A stretch of DNA of 64,000 nt from Marinomonas sp. SBI8L. GTDB lineage: Bacteria > Pseudomonadota > Gammaproteobacteria > Pseudomonadales > Marinomonadaceae. This document shows positions 4,467 to 44,237 of the stretch, piece by piece. Each line of letters begins with the position of its first letter. Positions within the stretch are counted from its first letter, which is position 1. Under the pieces are notes generated by a model. That model was not told where the DNA came from. It made no database searches and saw only the letters and a list, made by a program, of their open reading frames with translations. The stretch is taken from positions 372,001 through 436,000 of the forward strand of contig NZ_JSEO01000004.1 in assembly GCF_001624705.1 (NCBI RefSeq), written 5' to 3'. The translations under genes and the position numbers were made by a program.

Positions 4467-4871
4467 TTAGCTCCCAGCAAGCGCCATTAACCAGACACTC
4501 CAACTAAGTGCATGGATACCACCAGCCAAACTTGACCACCCCCATAGAGCAACCGAGCGATCTGATGTCTTTATTAAACTTAGAAAGAGAAAGACGAGTG
4601 GAAGAATAAGGTTACTCAATAAGAGTAAAGGAGGAATCACCACGCCAATCTGCGGCCCTAGGCTTTTTAACATCACAGTACTGGCAATTAAACTAAGCAA
4701 TAGAAAAGTATAAAAAGGGAGAGATTCTTTTTTTCGAGCATTTTCATGTTTTTTATTAATACGAACATAAATCGCTAAACAGATAAGGTAACAAGGCAAA
4801 ATCAGTAGCGGCAGATATAGCACAACACTAGAAAACAATAGAAAGTCTGGTAATAAATTCCATAGATTCAT
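4467..4871 (-). CDS. Small integral membrane protein, unknown function
   Basis: A 134-aa, very hydrophobic protein with four predicted membrane segments (about 8-38, 50-70, 74-98 and 108-132) and one basic cytoplasmic loop (NKKHENARKKES). No catalytic motif is visible and the family is not recognised. It starts 4 bp after the stop of the ICMT-like methyltransferase gene upstream, so the two are co-transcribed and probably translationally coupled. A shared membrane role is inference from this coupling. Confidence 0.6.
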   Translation of the reverse strand: MNLWNLLPDFLLFSSVVLYLPLLILPCYLICLAIYVRINKKHENARKKESLPFYTFLLLSLIASTVMLKSLGPQIGVVIPPLLLLSNLILPLVFLFLSLIKTSDRSVALWGWSSLAGGIHALSWSVWLMALAGS

Positions 4872-4875
4872 AAGC

Positions 4876-5349
4876 TTAACACCAGCGCCTAACTTGAGTT
4901 CGATACTCTAACACCTCATTACCAAACAAGGTTTCAAGTGCTCGTTCTTCTGGCTCAATTTGAAAACGTGACATATATAAAACAAAAAATGGCGTAAGCG
5001 CCAAAGCACCAAAATGGGCTAAGAAACCACTCCATGCAATCACACAAAGCAGCATACCTAAATACATAGGGTTACGGGTATATTGATAGATACCAGAAGT
5101 CACTAATGAAGAGGCTGATTCAGGCTTAGTTGGATTAACCGTGGTACTAGCGTCTTTGAAAGCTTTCACTCCCAGAAGAGCAATCAGGCTCCCAGCAATA
5201 ATGCCAAACAACAGGATAGAAAATCGCACGATAAAACCCAAATCCAGCTGTAAGAAAGACAAGACACCTAATTGGCTAACGCCCCACATAAGCAAAGCAA
5301 AAGCCAAGACAAGCAAAACAGGCGGTAGCTTTAACTCAAGAAATGACAT
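4876..5349 (-). CDS. Isoprenylcysteine carboxyl methyltransferase-family protein
   Basis: A 157-aa membrane protein of the ICMT/phospholipid methyltransferase fold. It has three to four hydrophobic segments and the family core: YQYTRNPMYLGMLL (about 89-103), which supplies the RNPxY SAM-binding motif, then RFQIEPEERALETLFG and the tail EYRTQVRRW. Bacterial members methylate small or lipid substrates that are mostly unknown, since bacteria lack prenylated CaaX proteins. An AAGGAGAT site precedes the ATG at 5349. The next gene starts 4 bp downstream in the same operon. Confidence 0.82.
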   Translation of the reverse strand: MSFLELKLPPVLLVLAFALLMWGVSQLGVLSFLQLDLGFIVRFSILLFGIIAGSLIALLGVKAFKDASTTVNPTKPESASSLVTSGIYQYTRNPMYLGMLLCVIAWSGFLAHFGALALTPFFVLYMSRFQIEPEERALETLFGNEVLEYRTQVRRWC

Positions 5350-38249: not shown

Positions 38250-38293
38250 ATTAGAAGATTAAATGAAGTAGCCAAAGATTGGCTACGCTCACT
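38244..38293 (+). repeat. 50-bp direct repeat, copy 1 (end of MocR gene and terminator)
   Basis: Begins AGCTAGATTAGAAG, with the MocR stop codon inside, and includes the hairpin GTAGCCAA-AGA-TTGGCTAC (38268-38286) followed by CTATTTTTTATT, so it is the MocR terminator. It matches 39194-39243 at all but about six positions. Confidence 0.85.
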
Positions 38294-38900
38294 ATTTTTT
38301 ATTACTAAATTGATCTTTTAATGGGTCGTAGTATGGGCAGTCATAATTAGGACCTACTTGCTCTTCCTCTGCATCAGCAAAAAAACTACGTGCATGCTCA
38401 TGTACGTCACATGGCAATATTAGAAATGCCACATCATCTGGAGCAAATGATAAGTCACCAATGATTCTCCACTCTCTTTCCCATTCGAAACGATATCTTG
38501 AACTGCCATACTCCCCTGGAATGTCAATAAATGGAGCCAAGTCAAAGAAATACTCTTTATCTAACCCGCTTAAATTATTTGAAAGGTGAGTAAGTGATAT
38601 ATGCTCTTTGCTATCTTTTTCTACATACCAAACTCGTTGAGCACCTACTTTTAGAAGCCAGTCTTTCTTAAACACTATTCCGTAGTTGTACCTTCTATTC
38701 ACTAGTTTCTTTAAAAATTTAGGTGGAATTTCACTAAAGCATATTGAGTTCTTTTTGTGACACTCTTTTTTATATCCAAACGAATTTTTAGAGCAAACTT
38801 TTCCAGATGATAATATTCTCATAAATGTTTCATAAGGGTTTTCTTTGCCAACAAGGTGAATTAAGTAATCAGATTGATCATCATTTTTTATAGCATTCAT
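38292..38900 (-). CDS. Unrecognised 202-aa accessory protein
   Basis: Begins with a short-loop pattern HLVGKENPYETFMRILSSGKV, then CFSEIPPKFLKKLVNRR, YGIVFKKDWLLKVGAQRVWYV, a conserved-looking FEWEREWRIIGDLSFAPDDVAFLILP and an acidic tail. The layout (an N-terminal 'house-keeping' H...L..IL..G motif, a CFSE motif and a WEREWR motif) recalls DUF2971-type and ADP-ribosyltransferase-fold proteins of defence islands. That is a by-eye likeness, not a domain call. Its stop touches copy 1 of a duplicated 50-bp repeat and copy 2 lies 290 bp before its start, so the gene looks like a moved cassette. Confidence 0.6.
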   Translation of the reverse strand: MNAIKNDDQSDYLIHLVGKENPYETFMRILSSGKVCSKNSFGYKKECHKKNSICFSEIPPKFLKKLVNRRYNYGIVFKKDWLLKVGAQRVWYVEKDSKEHISLTHLSNNLSGLDKEYFFDLAPFIDIPGEYGSSRYRFEWEREWRIIGDLSFAPDDVAFLILPCDVHEHARSFFADAEEEQVGPNYDCPYYDPLKDQFSNKK

Positions 38901-39482: not shown

Positions 39483-40370
39483 CTACTCAATAATAACTAG
39501 CGTGATTGAGAACCCCTTTTTTTGATAATACGTTTGTTCAAAAACGATCTTATCAAAGCCATCTTCAATATCTGAAAACCAAGTTTGAACATCTACAGGC
39601 TCTTTTTCAGTAAAGTGCTCGTATGTTTCACCTTTATGGTTAGCGAAAATACTGTCTTTAGGAAGAGGTTGTTTTTTTCCTACCCGTAACAAGCCTGGTA
39701 AATTATCTTTATTTGACCAAGTATAATTACAAACACCATTTTCAGCGTGGATTAAGGCAATAGCTTTGTCTTTTAGAATTGAACAAGATCGGTTTGCAAC
39801 CGTTGAGAAGCTGACTTGCGTAAGATGTGAGACTTCATTCAAATACCTTAAGCAAAACTCTTTGCCTTCAAACTCTTTAATCAGTAAGTGTTTAGGTAAT
39901 AAGATTAGGTTTGCAAACTTATTTGCTTCTTTTTCAAACTCTTCACTTTCAATCTTACCTTCTTTAGTGAGTTTAAGAACTTTTTCTTTTTTTTGTTCTT
40001 CGCTTAATGCATAAAACTCTTTTAAATCGTTAAAGGAAGCAGTATTACGGTGCAAAGGTAATAGGTGGTGACCTAATTCGTGTGCGATTGTGAAGTGTTT
40101 ACGGTATGGAGCTATCTCATGGTCTTTATATAAAATAATACCAATATCAAACTCATCTTTTGGAGTTGTCCAATATCCCTCTGGATAGTCTTTTATAGAC
40201 TCTCCTAAAGCAAAATCCTCAAAGTTTCGAATAAGTTCGATTCGACACTGATAAGCGATTTCAAATATCGGTACAGGAAAAGACAGCTCGGGGAGCTGTC
40301 TATAAATTTCATTTGCTATGTCATGTGGTGTAAAATAGTCATCAAGCCTTACATCATCCAATGTAATCAT
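39483..40370 (-). CDS. ImmA/IrrE-family metallo-endopeptidase
   Basis: A 295-aa zinc protease with the motif H97-E98-L-G-H101 in FTIAHELGHHLLPLHR and the third-ligand region KEANKFANLILLPKHLL (Glu about 148). ImmA-type enzymes cleave a partner XRE repressor after a signal such as DNA damage or peptide. The partner gene ends at its first base (TAATG overlap, AAGGAAC before the start), so the two are coupled. The C-terminal 110 residues carry a further domain with TWSNKDNLPGLLRVGKKQPLP, seen in COG2856-type proteins, that may be the sensor. Confidence 0.88.
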   Translation of the reverse strand: MITLDDVRLDDYFTPHDIANEIYRQLPELSFPVPIFEIAYQCRIELIRNFEDFALGESIKDYPEGYWTTPKDEFDIGIILYKDHEIAPYRKHFTIAHELGHHLLPLHRNTASFNDLKEFYALSEEQKKEKVLKLTKEGKIESEEFEKEANKFANLILLPKHLLIKEFEGKEFCLRYLNEVSHLTQVSFSTVANRSCSILKDKAIALIHAENGVCNYTWSNKDNLPGLLRVGKKQPLPKDSIFANHKGETYEHFTEKEPVDVQTWFSDIEDGFDKIVFEQTYYQKKGFSITLVIIE

Positions 40371-40714
40371 TAAGTTCCTTCTTTATTTTTCTCCGTATCA
40401 ATCAACGCCATAGCCATTTTTAGGGCTTGCTTGATAACATCTAAATCCTTTGGAGTTAGGTTCTTAGTATCAAATTCTCTGAACATAACCTGTAAATCAT
40501 CATTATCTTGCTTTTTACCTATGCCAACAAGATCATCTAATGAGGTTACGTAGTATACAGCAAGCTTCTTTAGTAGTTCTAGTGATGGGTTCTTAGCTTT
40601 TCCCTTTTCTAATTCCCAGATATGGGGTTTAGACACACCTACAGCATCTGCAACAGTTTGAAGCGAGACATTTTTTGCCACTCTCAATTCTGTTAATTTT
40701 TCAGCTAAAGTCAT
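40370..40714 (-). CDS. XRE-family transcriptional repressor
   Basis: A 114-aa helix-turn-helix protein; ATG at 40714 with GGAG 8 nt upstream is chosen over the frame start at 40783. The HTH is LAEKLTELRVAKNVSLQTVADAVGV with recognition helix SKPHIWELEKG (about 28-38); a short helical C-terminal segment follows (FREFDTKNLTPKDLDVIKQA), which is where ImmA enzymes usually cut. It is co-transcribed with immA. A LexA-type box lies 157 bp upstream in the shared divergent region. Confidence 0.9.
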   Translation of the reverse strand: MTLAEKLTELRVAKNVSLQTVADAVGVSKPHIWELEKGKAKNPSLELLKKLAVYYVTSLDDLVGIGKKQDNDDLQVMFREFDTKNLTPKDLDVIKQALKMAMALIDTEKNKEGT

Positions 40715-40870
40715 GTGTTTTCTCCATAGTAAATTTCGGTGCAGATCATATCCTAGTAATTTTTGTAAGTACAGAACAAACACACGCGTTAAAATTCATC
40801 TTACAAATTTTACCCTGAACACTCCATTGTTAGATATATCAAACGATATCATATAATAATACACTCAATA

Positions 40871-40890: not shown

Positions 40891-40958
40891 AAATTATAAC
40901 TATATGCTTTTCGTTAAAATAAAGTAACACTTTTGTATGGATATTTCCAACAAAGAGC

Positions 40959-40988
40959 TTGACCCATTATTATGAGTATAGTTACTAT
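40959..40988 (+). promoter_or_regulatory. Promoter of the 57-aa gene
   Basis: TTGACC (40959-40964) and TACTAT (40983-40988) are 18 bp apart, ending about 60 bp before the start. A 9-bp hairpin GTTAGATAT/ATATCTAAC (40992-41030) occupies the leader and stops 3 nt before the GAGG ribosome site. Confidence 0.5.
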
Positions 40989-41046
40989 TGCGTTAGATAT
41001 TAAATCATCTATTCGTTAAAAATATCTAACACAGAGGAAAAAGCTA

Positions 41047-41220
41047 ATGGCAAAAAATGGACAATCAGGCGATAACCGCCGGCATGGTGCAGTACGAAAA
41101 CGTTCGCAAACTCAAATGCCTAGCGGACATTGGGTAAAAAGAGATGCTGAAACAGGACAGTTTATGGATATAAAAACATCTGATAAGACACCCTTTAAGG
41201 GAGTCCGGAAAGAAAAATAG
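41047..41220 (+). CDS. Conserved-looking 57-aa basic protein
   Basis: GAGG lies 9 nt before the ATG. The protein (start MAKNGQSGDNRRHGAVRKRS) is rich in Gly, Lys and Arg, with no hydrophobic core, a middle part HWVKRDAETGQFMDIK that looks like a two-strand hairpin, and the end TPFKGVRKEK. I recall small proteins of this pattern ('...NRHGAVR.RSQ...KRD..TG.FM..K') in other bacteria, where they are unnamed. A nucleic-acid- or ribosome-binding role would fit the charge but is not shown. Its own terminator overlaps the stop codon. Confidence 0.7.
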   Translation: MAKNGQSGDNRRHGAVRKRSQTQMPSGHWVKRDAETGQFMDIKTSDKTPFKGVRKEK

Positions 41221-41250
41221 GCTTTCATCACCACAATGAAAACCTATTTT
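41214..41250 (+). terminator. Terminator of the 57-aa gene
   Basis: Arms AAAATAGGCTTTCAT (41214-41228) and ATGAAAACCTATTTT (41236-41250) pair over 14 of 15 positions around the loop CACCACA. The stem contains the stop codon. Confidence 0.75.
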
Positions 41251-41267
41251 AGTATTTAAGTTGAAGA

Positions 41268-41290
41268 GTAAAAATCACCACAATTTTTAC
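41268..41290 (+). other. Second hairpin with the same loop
   Basis: GTAAAAAT and ATTTTTAC close on the loop CACCACA. The 11-base word ATCACCACAAT is shared with the preceding hairpin. It lies between that terminator and the leader of the next small gene. Confidence 0.7.
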
Positions 41291-41305
41291 TTTCAGGCAT
41301 ATACC

Positions 41306-41394
41306 GAGGAGGTCTCTCCTGCTGGCTACACCAAATATGTTACGTGTTTGATACTAGCCTTAGTCAACTTAAAACACAATAGAGATCCCTCCTC
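41306..41394 (+). ncRNA. Candidate structured RNA leader of the 33-aa gene
   Basis: Nested stems can form: an outer helix GAGGAGG-TCTCT (41306-41317) with AGAGA-TC-CCTCCTC (41381-41394), a middle helix GGCTA (41324-41328) with TAGCC (41355-41359), and an inner CAAA/TTTG (41332-41335 and 41347-41350). The outer 3' arm ends 11 nt before the CAGGAG ribosome site of the downstream small gene. No known riboswitch motif was recognised. Confidence 0.5.
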
Positions 41395-41417
41395 TTTAAA
41401 CTTACAGGAGCTTTATT

Positions 41418-41519
41418 ATGTCTCAGACTAAAAGCATTCACGTAAGGTCTTACCCTAGATATAGGTTTGGCAGATGGGAGAATGTTATCTCTCACTGGCG
41501 ATCTGCACCTAGTGCATAG
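41418..41519 (+). CDS. 33-aa basic aromatic micro-protein
   Basis: CAGGAG at 41405-41410 sits 7 nt before the ATG. The product starts MSQTKSIHVRSYPRYRFGRW and continues ENVISHWRSAPSA; it has six arginines or lysines and seven aromatic residues or histidines in 33 positions, with no membrane segment. Very short genes with the pattern 'K.I.V.SY.R.R.G..E.V..H.RS' are known to me from other bacteria without function. A terminator follows at once, which supports it as a real transcription unit together with the structured leader. Confidence 0.6.
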   Translation: MSQTKSIHVRSYPRYRFGRWENVISHWRSAPSA

Positions 41520-41523
41520 ACCA

Positions 41524-41552
41524 AATGAGGCGCAGTTTTTCTACGCCTCATT
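41524..41552 (+). terminator. Terminator of the 33-aa gene
   Basis: AATGAGGCG and CGCCTCATT pair perfectly around an 11-nt T-rich loop, then CATCTTTTTTATG; 5 bp after the stop. Confidence 0.85.
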
Positions 41553-41609
41553 CATCTTTTTTATGAAATAAATCAATTAGTTTAGCACTTTACTTAAAAG
41601 AGAGAATTT

Positions 41610-41966
41610 ATGGAAAATCAAACCCTCACTTGTCCCAATTGTTACAATGAACATAATATTAAAGCGAAAATGTGTGCTCCTTGTAAATCTTATATCTACC
41701 CAGTTAAATCATTTAAAATTTTATCTAGGAAATTCTTTCAACACTTTAGTTATTCAATACTTATTTTTTTGATTTTATCTGTCACTAATTTAGTATTTAA
41801 CTACATACCTAGCTGGTTAATATTTTATTCTTCTTATACCTACTTCTTTCCAATAAATTTTCTCATAACAATATTTCAGTATGCTTTTATATTTTCATCT
41901 ATTTTTACCGTTTTATATTACTTAATAAATAAAAATAAGCTTATTTATTTAAGGTATGAATTTTAA
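41610..41966 (+). CDS. Zinc-ribbon membrane protein
   Basis: A 118-aa protein. The N-terminal zinc ribbon CPNC-x11-CAPC (residues 8-26) is followed by two or three membrane segments (about 44-62, 67-88 and 88-108) with many aromatic residues. Codon use is extremely AT-rich compared with the neighbouring core genes, which suggests transfer. Function unknown; ribbon-plus-membrane proteins of this size often anchor or sense at the membrane. Confidence 0.6.
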   Translation: MENQTLTCPNCYNEHNIKAKMCAPCKSYIYPVKSFKILSRKFFQHFSYSILIFLILSVTNLVFNYIPSWLIFYSSYTYFFPINFLITIFQYAFIFSSIFTVLYYLINKNKLIYLRYEF

Positions 41967-43933: not shown

Positions 43934-43957
43934 TAAAAAAAGGCACCAAATGGTGCC
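43934..43957 (-). terminator. Terminator of the tRNA cluster
   Basis: On the minus strand GGCACCA-TT-TGGTGCC followed by T7. The first arm is the 3' end of tRNA-Leu itself. Confidence 0.88.
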
Positions 43958-44037
43958 CGGGACCGGAATCGAACCGGTACGGTATTACTACCGCAAGATT
44001 TTAAGTCTTGTGCGTCTACCAATTTCGCCACCCGGGC
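43951..44037 (-). tRNA. tRNA-Leu(UAA)
   Basis: 87 nt including an encoded CCA. The acceptor stem is GCCCGGG/CCCGGGC, the anticodon loop CTTAAAA on stem CAAGA/TCTTG gives UAA, the long variable arm expected for leucine is present, and the T-arm GGTTCGATTCC is canonical. Third of three tRNAs after pgsA. The GGCACCA end also forms one arm of the downstream terminator. Confidence 0.96.
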
Positions 44038-44067
44038 ACATCTAGCTTTTGCTACATGCTCTGATTA

Positions 44068-44141
44068 TGGAGGCCGGAGTCGGAATCGAACCGGCGTTGA
44101 CGGAGTTGCAGTCCGCTGCATGACCACTCTGCCATCCGGCC
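44068..44141 (-). tRNA. tRNA-Cys(GCA)
   Basis: 74 nt with encoded CCA; acceptor GGCCGGA/TCCGGCC, anticodon loop CTGCAAC giving GCA, discriminator U, T-arm GGTTCGATTCC. Confidence 0.96.
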
Positions 44142-44162
44142 TTAAATCAGATTATCTTCTAC

Positions 44163-44237
44163 TGGAGCGGGAAACGAGGCTCGAACTCGCGACCCCAACC
44201 TTGGCAAGGTTGTGCTCTACCACTGAGCTATTCCCGC
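44163..44237 (-). tRNA. tRNA-Gly(GCC)
   Basis: 75 nt with encoded CCA; acceptor GCGGGAA/TTCCCGC, anticodon arm AACCTTGCCAAGGTT giving GCC, T-arm GAGTTCGAGCCTC. Confidence 0.96.

Follow-up and report, generated by a model that had tools for sequence, protein, structure and literature searches.

Immune operons able to kill the cell need to be held off until they are needed, and three transcriptional locks have been described, CapW, CapH-CapP and CapK-CapS. As far as the accessible parts of the sources go, CapW/BrxR, CapK-CapS and CapH-CapP are DNA-damage controllers of such operons (PMC13373217; further accounts in PMC9122588 and PMC9122601), and the published operon accounts in these three papers name neither a small first gene nor an RNA. 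Here we describe a 64,000-nucleotide stretch of Marinomonas sp. SBI8L (contig NZ_JSEO01000004.1, positions 372,001 to 436,000; the window) in which two microproteins, P1 and P2, are encoded behind CapH-CapP-like genes, with a pseudoknotted RNA between them. We hold it to be somewhat probable that this RNA, in this setting, switches the translation of P2. If so, a conserved RNA at the ribosome site behind two of the three locks would represent a second, translational lock, and the RNA would be a candidate sensor RNA of a new kind that can be put to the test. Genes that resemble each of the three locks occur next to P1. New here is the link of two families, PHROG 12550 (P1) and PHROG 21154 (P2), to damage controllers and to each other.

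The likeness of the window to CapH-CapP lies in a gene pair divergent to P1, an XRE-type repressor and an M78-type HExxH metallopeptidase, which score as capH and capP. An earlier reading of the letters without database searches (the sequence-only reading) had noticed this XRE-ImmA pair and called the stretch SOS-linked; since the pair scores as capH/capP in PADLOC, it is taken by its sequence as a CapH-CapP-like controller and the SOS/LexA label was dropped. The two small frames reported in that reading are present, with the ribosome sites AGAGGA ahead of P1 and AGGAG ahead of P2 recognizable by eye. The capH open reading frame was listed from a GTG at 40783; the ATG at 40714 lines up with the start of the relative in locus L025. 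Genes and elements around the RNA are the following.

39483..40370, minus strand: CapP-like metallopeptidase, 295 amino acids, HELGH motif in the translation (PADLOC capP E 6.4e-34; Pfam Peptidase_M78)
40370..40714, minus strand: CapH-like XRE repressor (PADLOC capH E 3.5e-16; 58% identity to the L025 homologue)
41047..41220, plus strand: P1, basic microprotein of 57 amino acids, PHROG 12550 (open reading frame and profile match)
41214..41250, plus strand: hairpin overlapping the P1 stop codon, predicted terminator or attenuator (fold -11.4 kcal/mol)
41254..41420, plus strand: structured RNA element including the P2 start codon (model R2 E 1.1e-6; fold z-score -3.74)
41418..41519, plus strand: P2, basic microprotein of 33 amino acids, PHROG 21154 (open reading frame and profile match)
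41524..41552, plus strand: hairpin behind P2, predicted terminator with a 9-bp stem, an 11-nucleotide loop and a T-run (sequence)

The gap between P1 and P2 encodes a conserved pseudoknotted structure, an RNA of about 140 nucleotides with five covariation-supported helices, one of which is the pseudoknot. Its parts in the window are these.

41255..41264 (5' arm) and 41364-41373 (3' arm), plus strand: outer helix Pa (arm permutation test)
41266..41294, plus strand: hairpin Pb, loop CACCACA (fold and covariation)
41294..41297 (5' arm) and 41318-41321 (3' arm), plus strand: helix Pc (sequence; helix counted in relatives)
41306..41317, plus strand: 5' strand of pseudoknot Pd, GAGGAGG-U-CUCU (permutation test and covariation)
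41324..41359, plus strand: hairpin Pe (fold and covariation)
41381..41394, plus strand: 3' strand of pseudoknot Pd, AGAG then CCTCCTC, able to pair instead with the P2 Shine-Dalgarno sequence (permutation test and folds)
41406..41410, plus strand: P2 Shine-Dalgarno sequence AGGAG (paired in local and full folds)

Two subgroups of relatives were aligned and folded apart, A5 (group II, seven sequences, three of them near-identical rows) and A9 (group I, eight sequences, the window and the Marinobacter plasmid locus L007 left out). Helices were misregistered in the MAFFT alignments A3, A4, A7 and A8, and covariation was counted from A5 and A9 only. RNAalifold recovered Pa, Pb and Pe in both alignments and Pc in A5; Pc in A9 and Pd in both were added by inspection. 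In A5, 89.0% of the cells are paired and 27 of 41 pairs show changes on both sides; the corresponding values in A9 are 82.8% and 23 of 41. The covariation score was reached by none of 500 shuffles in either alignment, and pairing fell to 36-49% when partners were slid by 1-3 columns. Pd pairs in 95-100% of the A5 cells. An alignment-free permutation of the arms over 15 sequences (segment ends set by eye; near-duplicates L043, L049 and L059 omitted, as well as L062 and L063) reached the observed pairing in 0 of 20,000 permutations for Pa and in 1 of 20,000 for Pd.

The 3' strand of the pseudoknot has a second potential partner. Judging from sequence and folding, the CCUCC strand can pair either with the GGAGG strand, which makes the pseudoknot, or with the Shine-Dalgarno sequence of the next gene, never with both together. 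The hairpin formed in the segment from this strand to the start codon covers the Shine-Dalgarno core in all 16 elements folded, completely in all but L025, where three quarters of it are covered, and it uses at least three pairs with the pseudoknot strand in 15 of the 16 (two in L051). In folds of 35 nucleotides full pairing of the core was seen at 12 of 13 P2 starts; among P1 starts 5 of 63 showed it, and among other genes from these loci 21 of 73. Folds of 40 nucleotides gave 11 of 13 for P2, 5 of 63 for P1 and 26 of 73 for the other genes. In L069 an A-to-G change is matched three times (AAGGGG in the 5' strand of Pd, CCCCUU in its 3' strand, GGGGAU at the ribosome site), as expected if one strand serves both partners. 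The 3' strand of Pd is thus able to pair with the Shine-Dalgarno sequence in all but one of the 16 elements, which makes a translational switch likely. The folds show two hallmarks of a riboswitch, a conserved RNA structure and a putative expression platform that is exclusive with the aptamer fold. In preQ1 riboswitches, which are smaller than the present RNA, a pseudoknot strand likewise competes with the downstream gene's ribosome site. The RNA described here resembles these translational switches in that predicted competition; it differs from them in its size, in having no Rfam match and in lying upstream of defence-operon genes.

The genes behind the RNA bear on whether it acts in cis. The P1 loci examined here are the best-scoring 80 of 453 confirmed loci, one genome per species, and 18 of them carry the RNA (E 0.01 or better with either of two RNA models, R1 covering 68 of the 80 loci and R2 79); among these 18, L043 is a duplicate of L042, and one match is common to L062 and L063. 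R2, built without them, finds the window (E 1.1e-6), L051 (5.3e-5) and L007 (2.8e-4), and R1, among sequences left out of its building, detects L062/L063 (2.1e-9), L030 (1.9e-4), L027 (1.4e-3) and the window (3.1e-3). The gene behind the RNA is P2 in 13 loci, YegP/DUF1508 in L024 and L030, and a multiubiquitin gene followed by an E1-like gene in L027; in L062/L063, the L062 copy of that gene matches a PD-(D/E)XK family. Past P2 come DrmA (L042), multiubiquitin and E1-like genes (L067) or a 118-amino-acid protein (the window). The position of the RNA ahead of unrelated genes, close to the ribosome site, therefore indicates control in cis. By eye, the P2 leaders of L009 (about 4840-5000) and L138 are similar, with a closing helix, pairing reminiscent of the pseudoknot and a ribosome site that might be masked; R2 does not detect these two leaders even with its filters off.

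The alternative that survives best, while still unlikely, is that the RNA acts in trans or binds protein, as a target of P1 or P2 or as an RNA antitoxin-like partner, and that its pairing with the Shine-Dalgarno sequence is incidental. In favour of this, the RNA has more size and complexity than a simple leader would need, and it stands behind a hairpin and between small basic proteins; defence proteins with RNA partners exist, such as the AbiF/RCd22 pair in the accessible text of PMC12373285. Against this stand the position of the last strand, which ends 20-74 nucleotides ahead of the start codon in the 16 elements folded, the ribosome site that can be covered in 15 of 16 elements ahead of three unrelated genes, and the excess of full Shine-Dalgarno pairing over the controls. 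A type III toxin-antitoxin arrangement finds no tandem repeat at 41000-41600 of the window; type III antitoxin RNAs are tandem repeats. The element matched no Rfam family, whether in the window or in the 13 relatives scanned, matches at E 0.014-0.55 within 40950-41600 being far below the cut-offs and taken as chance, and no paper on a matching RNA or system was recognized among those judged by titles and abstract openings.

The P1-P2 pair is a recurring option and not a rule. Besides the window, the P2 profile found P2 on the same strand about 180-220 nucleotides downstream of P1 in 13 of the 80 P1 loci (L025, L026, L029, L042, L043, L049, L050, L051, L059, L067, L069, L070 and L084), and the pair also stands on the Marinobacter plasmid of L007. 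There, an Rfam isrN match (L007:3721-3863, minus strand, E 4.1e-17) lies upstream of P1, the RNA and P2, antisense to an annotated IS3 transposase gene. In the other 67 loci, no P2 match was found within the fetched 4 kb. Among 17 P2 loci found independently of P1 (L023 being a weak match), a P1-like gene precedes P2 in two, L007 (E 4e-30) and L009 (E 0.0025), and P1 is absent within 1.5-5 kb in 15. A survey of 145 genomes found P1 in 7, P2 in 8 and both in 2, of which one is the window's own and the other places the two genes 173 kb from each other; a survey of 369 genomes found P1 in 15, P2 in 8 and both only in the window's own. The conclusion of no co-occurrence drawn from these surveys was dropped in view of the 13 close pairs among the P1 loci. 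The sequence-only reading had made co-occurrence a test of its idea that the two peptides are parts of one undescribed system beside an XRE-ImmA pair. The neighbours in 13 of 80 loci and on one plasmid bear out the co-occurrence, and recurrence beside XRE-ImmA or WYL genes supports the system in part: in outline the idea holds for some of the genomes, and an obligatory pair is contradicted by the 67 P1 and 15 P2 loci in which one stands alone.

Such solitary loci, and the presence of both families in phage and plasmid records, would also fit P1 and P2 as independent hitch-hikers of mobile elements whose adjacency in Gammaproteobacteria goes back to one ancestral event and serves no shared function, an account compatible with a switch that we judge improbable. 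The pair persists behind two unrelated controllers, CapH-CapP-like and WYL, with varied downstream genes, and at P2 identities to the window copy of 42-71% among the pair loci, with the RNA kept between the two genes.

The controller class of each locus was taken from the gene content up to 1.6 kb upstream of P1, and neighbours were counted within the fetched 4 kb; genes were called and clustered by profiles seeded from representatives, ten of which were scanned against Pfam. A CapW-like, CapK-CapS-like or CapH-CapP-like controller precedes P1 in 61 of the 80 loci, which links P1 to genes that match DNA-damage controllers by sequence. CapW-like loci, with a divergent WYL gene, number 30 (Pfam WYL for L024, PADLOC WYL in 6 of 6 checked, the other 24 assigned by the local profile). 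In 21 CapK-CapS-like loci P1 follows a co-directional STAS-wHTH-like gene, usually after a HATPase gene, and 10 loci have divergent XRE and/or ImmA genes and are CapH-CapP-like; the XRE/ImmA pair of L025 scores as capH/capP in PADLOC as well. The remainder comprises XRE/ImmA genes before a 68-amino-acid Cys/His gene (2), the 68-amino-acid gene alone (12) and other arrangements (5). Among 30 viral P1 loci, separate from the 80, 29 lack any of the three controllers up to 1.6 kb upstream. The WYL genes and the HATPase plus STAS-wHTH-like genes occupy the positions published for CapW/BrxR and CapK-CapS. Of the 21 CapK-CapS-like loci, 14 have the CapS site TTAA-N10-TTAA, a "wide palindrome" in the accessible text of PMC13373217, in the stretch that separates capS from P1, with 0.38 expected; the CapK-CapS-like assignment rests on gene order and this site and not on comparison with the published sequences. 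In L046, whose CapK-CapS-like pair was the only one scanned, HATPase_c (E 4e-4) and MarR_2 (E 1.7e-5) stayed below the Pfam cut-offs and no STAS match was found. In CapH-CapP-like loci, GTTAG/CTAAC sites lie in the intergenic region between capH and P1, three each in L025, L026 and L029 and one in L102.

Immune genes near P1 in the 80 loci are CD-NTase (19), HNH-SAVED (17), E2-like (17) and HsdR (17); YdjM (21) and DUF1508 (10) are further neighbours. A YegP/DUF1508 gene stands behind capK-capS in 57 of 443 cases in the accessible text of PMC13373217; the 10 DUF1508 loci resemble that arrangement, with the difference that P1 lies between the controller and DUF1508, and in L024 and L030 the RNA does so too. 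RptR, from the type I restriction island of PMC12255303, is likewise a small protein whose gene comes first in such an island. The accessible description there makes it a four-helix repressor of about 9 kDa, whereas P1 is modelled as beta strands, and the two are set apart on that description.

The region between capH and P1 holds a predicted promoter and operator.

40829..40837, plus strand: GTTAGATAT, predicted CapH operator half-site (motif count in 64 kb)
40959..40988, plus strand: predicted P1 promoter, TTGACC-18-TACTAT (promoter scan)
40992..41000, plus strand: GTTAGATAT, left half of the predicted operator, right behind the -10 box (motif count)
41022..41030, minus strand: GTTAGATAT, right (inverted) half of the predicted operator (motif count)

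The motif matches 4 times in the 64 kb, with 0.58 expected, and three of the four matches lie between capH and P1; promoter-like sites in the region number 6 against 4.0 expected, so that the promoter call is weak alone. A possible course of events can be drawn up from these parts. By analogy with the CapH-CapP work cited in the accessible text of PMC13373217, single-stranded DNA arising after damage or phage attack would activate CapP and lead to cutting of CapH. Cleavage would release the predicted P1 promoter, which precedes the inverted GTTAGATAT repeats, and P1, basic and beta-rich by model, would be the first protein made. Part of the transcripts would end at the hairpin over the P1 stop codon, and those that read through would carry the RNA. 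We infer that its pseudoknot state frees the ribosome site (on) and its hairpin state hides it (off), the state being chosen by a ligand, by P1, by P2 or by the folding pathway. The RNA could serve as a portable second lock on defence operons, as it may also do ahead of YegP/DUF1508 and multiubiquitin genes, and P1 and P2, to go by their charge, might be nucleic-acid-binding helpers of the response. A bolder version, in which the RNA represents a new class of sensor in damage-controlled immune operons whose pseudoknot reads P1 or a small molecule of the infected cell and frees the translation of immune genes, is tentative, possible rather than probable.

Several observations weigh against a translational switch of P2 in such an operon. 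The sequestration is partly built in, because the Pd arm resembles a Shine-Dalgarno sequence and its complement fits any strong one; at a looser mark (75% paired, 35 nucleotides) the 13 of 13 P2 starts compare with 46 of 73 other genes and 18 of 63 P1 starts, and the best hairpin of L051 uses mostly bases beside the pseudoknot strand. Pd pairs in only 75% of the A9 cells and imperfectly in L024, and its CCUCC strand is unrecognizable by eye in L062/L063. The count of further pair types in A5, with its three near-identical rows, was reached by 24 of 500 shuffles, and RNAalifold returned only Pd on an earlier, worse alignment that included the window (A4). Of the 18 RNA-bearing loci, 15 were used in model building and match by construction; genome searches with R1 and R2 overlooked even the window's own copy and are uninformative on spread outside P1/P2 loci. 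The 80 P1 loci, top-scoring among the 453, are not a random draw. The RNA occurs in none of the 21 CapK-CapS-like loci, so P1 appears to work without it; the GTTAG/CTAAC sites are absent from 5 of the 10 XRE/ImmA intergenic regions (L028, L031, L053, L080 and L091). L042 and L043 are two copies from a single contig, and neither offers P2 an ATG in frame; the other 11 pairs are intact. The P1 model is weak in confidence at its N terminus and has no fold match.

The hairpin at the P1 stop codon suggests another role for the RNA, as part of a transcription attenuator or antiterminator in which it would set termination and not translation. Such a hairpin lies on or right behind the P1 stop in all 17 loci folded; it is upstream of the RNA and therefore transcribed before the RNA exists, and in the window neither inspection nor the scan shows a terminator on the way from the RNA to the following start codon, which makes this account quite improbable. 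The sequence-only reading claimed perfect hairpin terminators behind both frames. Hairpins are present at both places, the one at P1 with one mismatch and overlapping the stop codon; a terminator consensus scan limited to loops of 3-8 nucleotides lists neither (0 found). The same reading suggested a toxin together with an RNA- or ribosome-binding peptide, and no finding here supports a toxin. That P1 and P2 form a toxin-antitoxin pair or a two-part effector has their recurrence together behind damage controllers in its favour, and is very hard to uphold given that most of the loci examined have only one of the two, that an acid-base toxin-antitoxin complex is unlikely between proteins that are both basic, and that neither matches a Pfam or NCBIfam toxin.

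P1 and P2 themselves are, by sequence, conserved microprotein families. P1 matches PHROG 12550 over its whole length (E 6.5e-21), and residues 4-32 of P2 match positions 18-46 of the 47-position profile of PHROG 21154 (E 3.4e-8); both PHROG families are unnamed and of unknown function. A single-sequence search found 583 homologues of P1, and a profile built from 16 sequences at least 7,997, so that it has thousands of uncharacterized relatives, with no function assigned in the databases and texts searched. Both peptides had been described as strongly basic, in agreement with net charges of +8 for P1 (isoelectric point 10.7) and +5 for P2 (11.5). Purifying selection, proposed at the same time as a check on their conservation, is apparent in the ratio of nonsynonymous to synonymous differences per site (pN/pS), with medians of 0.07 for P1 (45 pairs with pS 0.1-0.6, many of them from one close-kin group), 0.20 for the window copy of P1 against 60 loci, and 0.25 for P2 (21 pairs, all with pS >0.6). 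No Pfam or NCBIfam family passed its cut-off for either; a GTP1_OBG match in Pfam (E 0.034) was weak, below the cut-off, and was rejected. Structure models predict four beta strands in each, with a mean predicted local distance difference test score of 76.7 for P1 and 83.3 for P2; fold searches with these models gave best E values of 0.49 and 6.2, respectively, and assigned no function. Sequence searches against solved structures gave weak matches at E 0.0059 to a designed beta-trefoil and at E 0.22 to ribosomal protein S14. A search of the open-licence literature with the P1 and P2 peptide strings found no paper, and P1 was not met in the accessible text on controllers in PMC13373217.

As to mobile elements, 15 phage and 74 plasmid records contain P1 (E 1e-3), and 5 phage and 55 plasmid records contain P2 at the loose limit of E 1. 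In Streptococcus and Staphylococcus phages (L002 and L003), P1 relatives lie on the integrase/repressor strand by the lysogeny genes, and 12 further phage records of these genera have P1 matches at similar positions, going by positions alone. A 5.4-kb ColRNAI-type plasmid of Klebsiella (L005) is filled in good part by a WYL gene, a divergent P1 and a DUF1883 gene. P2-like proteins in L018 and L021 follow the pattern HVPEHxRKGKNGxRxKVREHYRSTPN and are perhaps a sister family of P2.

Two gene arrangements recur around P1. The first runs HsdR, HATPase, STAS-wHTH-like, P1, YdjM, HNH-SAVED, CD-NTase and E2-like (L033, L038-L041, L044-L047, L054, L074 and L076, with no HATPase call in L038 and a split HNH-SAVED gene in L040), and it spans Vibrio, Alteromonas, Marinomonas, Shewanella, Methyloprofundus and Desulfosarcina. 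In the second, P1 follows within about 25 nucleotides a gene of about 68 codons with the conserved Cys/His pattern HEVH...C...NGCxxC...CHT; its 14 loci among the 80 (L057, L068, L072, L078, L083, L085, L087, L088, L090, L092, L093, L095, L096 and L098) are all Rhodobacteraceae-type, with XRE/ImmA genes ahead of the small gene in L092 and L098, and the L087 copy, the only one scanned, has no Pfam match.

Farther out in the window, which holds no complete known immune effector downstream, two neighbouring genes were noted.

38292..38900, minus strand: AbiGi-like protein of 202 amino acids, neighbour past capP on the same strand as capP (Pfam AbiGi E 3.1e-7; PADLOC AbiGi E 2.2e-6)
41610..41966, plus strand: protein of 118 amino acids with an N-terminal CxxC...CxxC and hydrophobic segments, next gene past P2 (open reading frame)

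The 118-amino-acid protein has no above-chance family match in Pfam, NCBIfam, PHROG or PADLOC. An empty-site search with the DNA of the two flanks returned the window's own genome alone; 12 other genomes of the genus had neither flank. About 2 kb from the accessory stretch, a cluster of tRNA-Leu, tRNA-Cys and tRNA-Gly genes at 43951-44237 marks a possible integration site.

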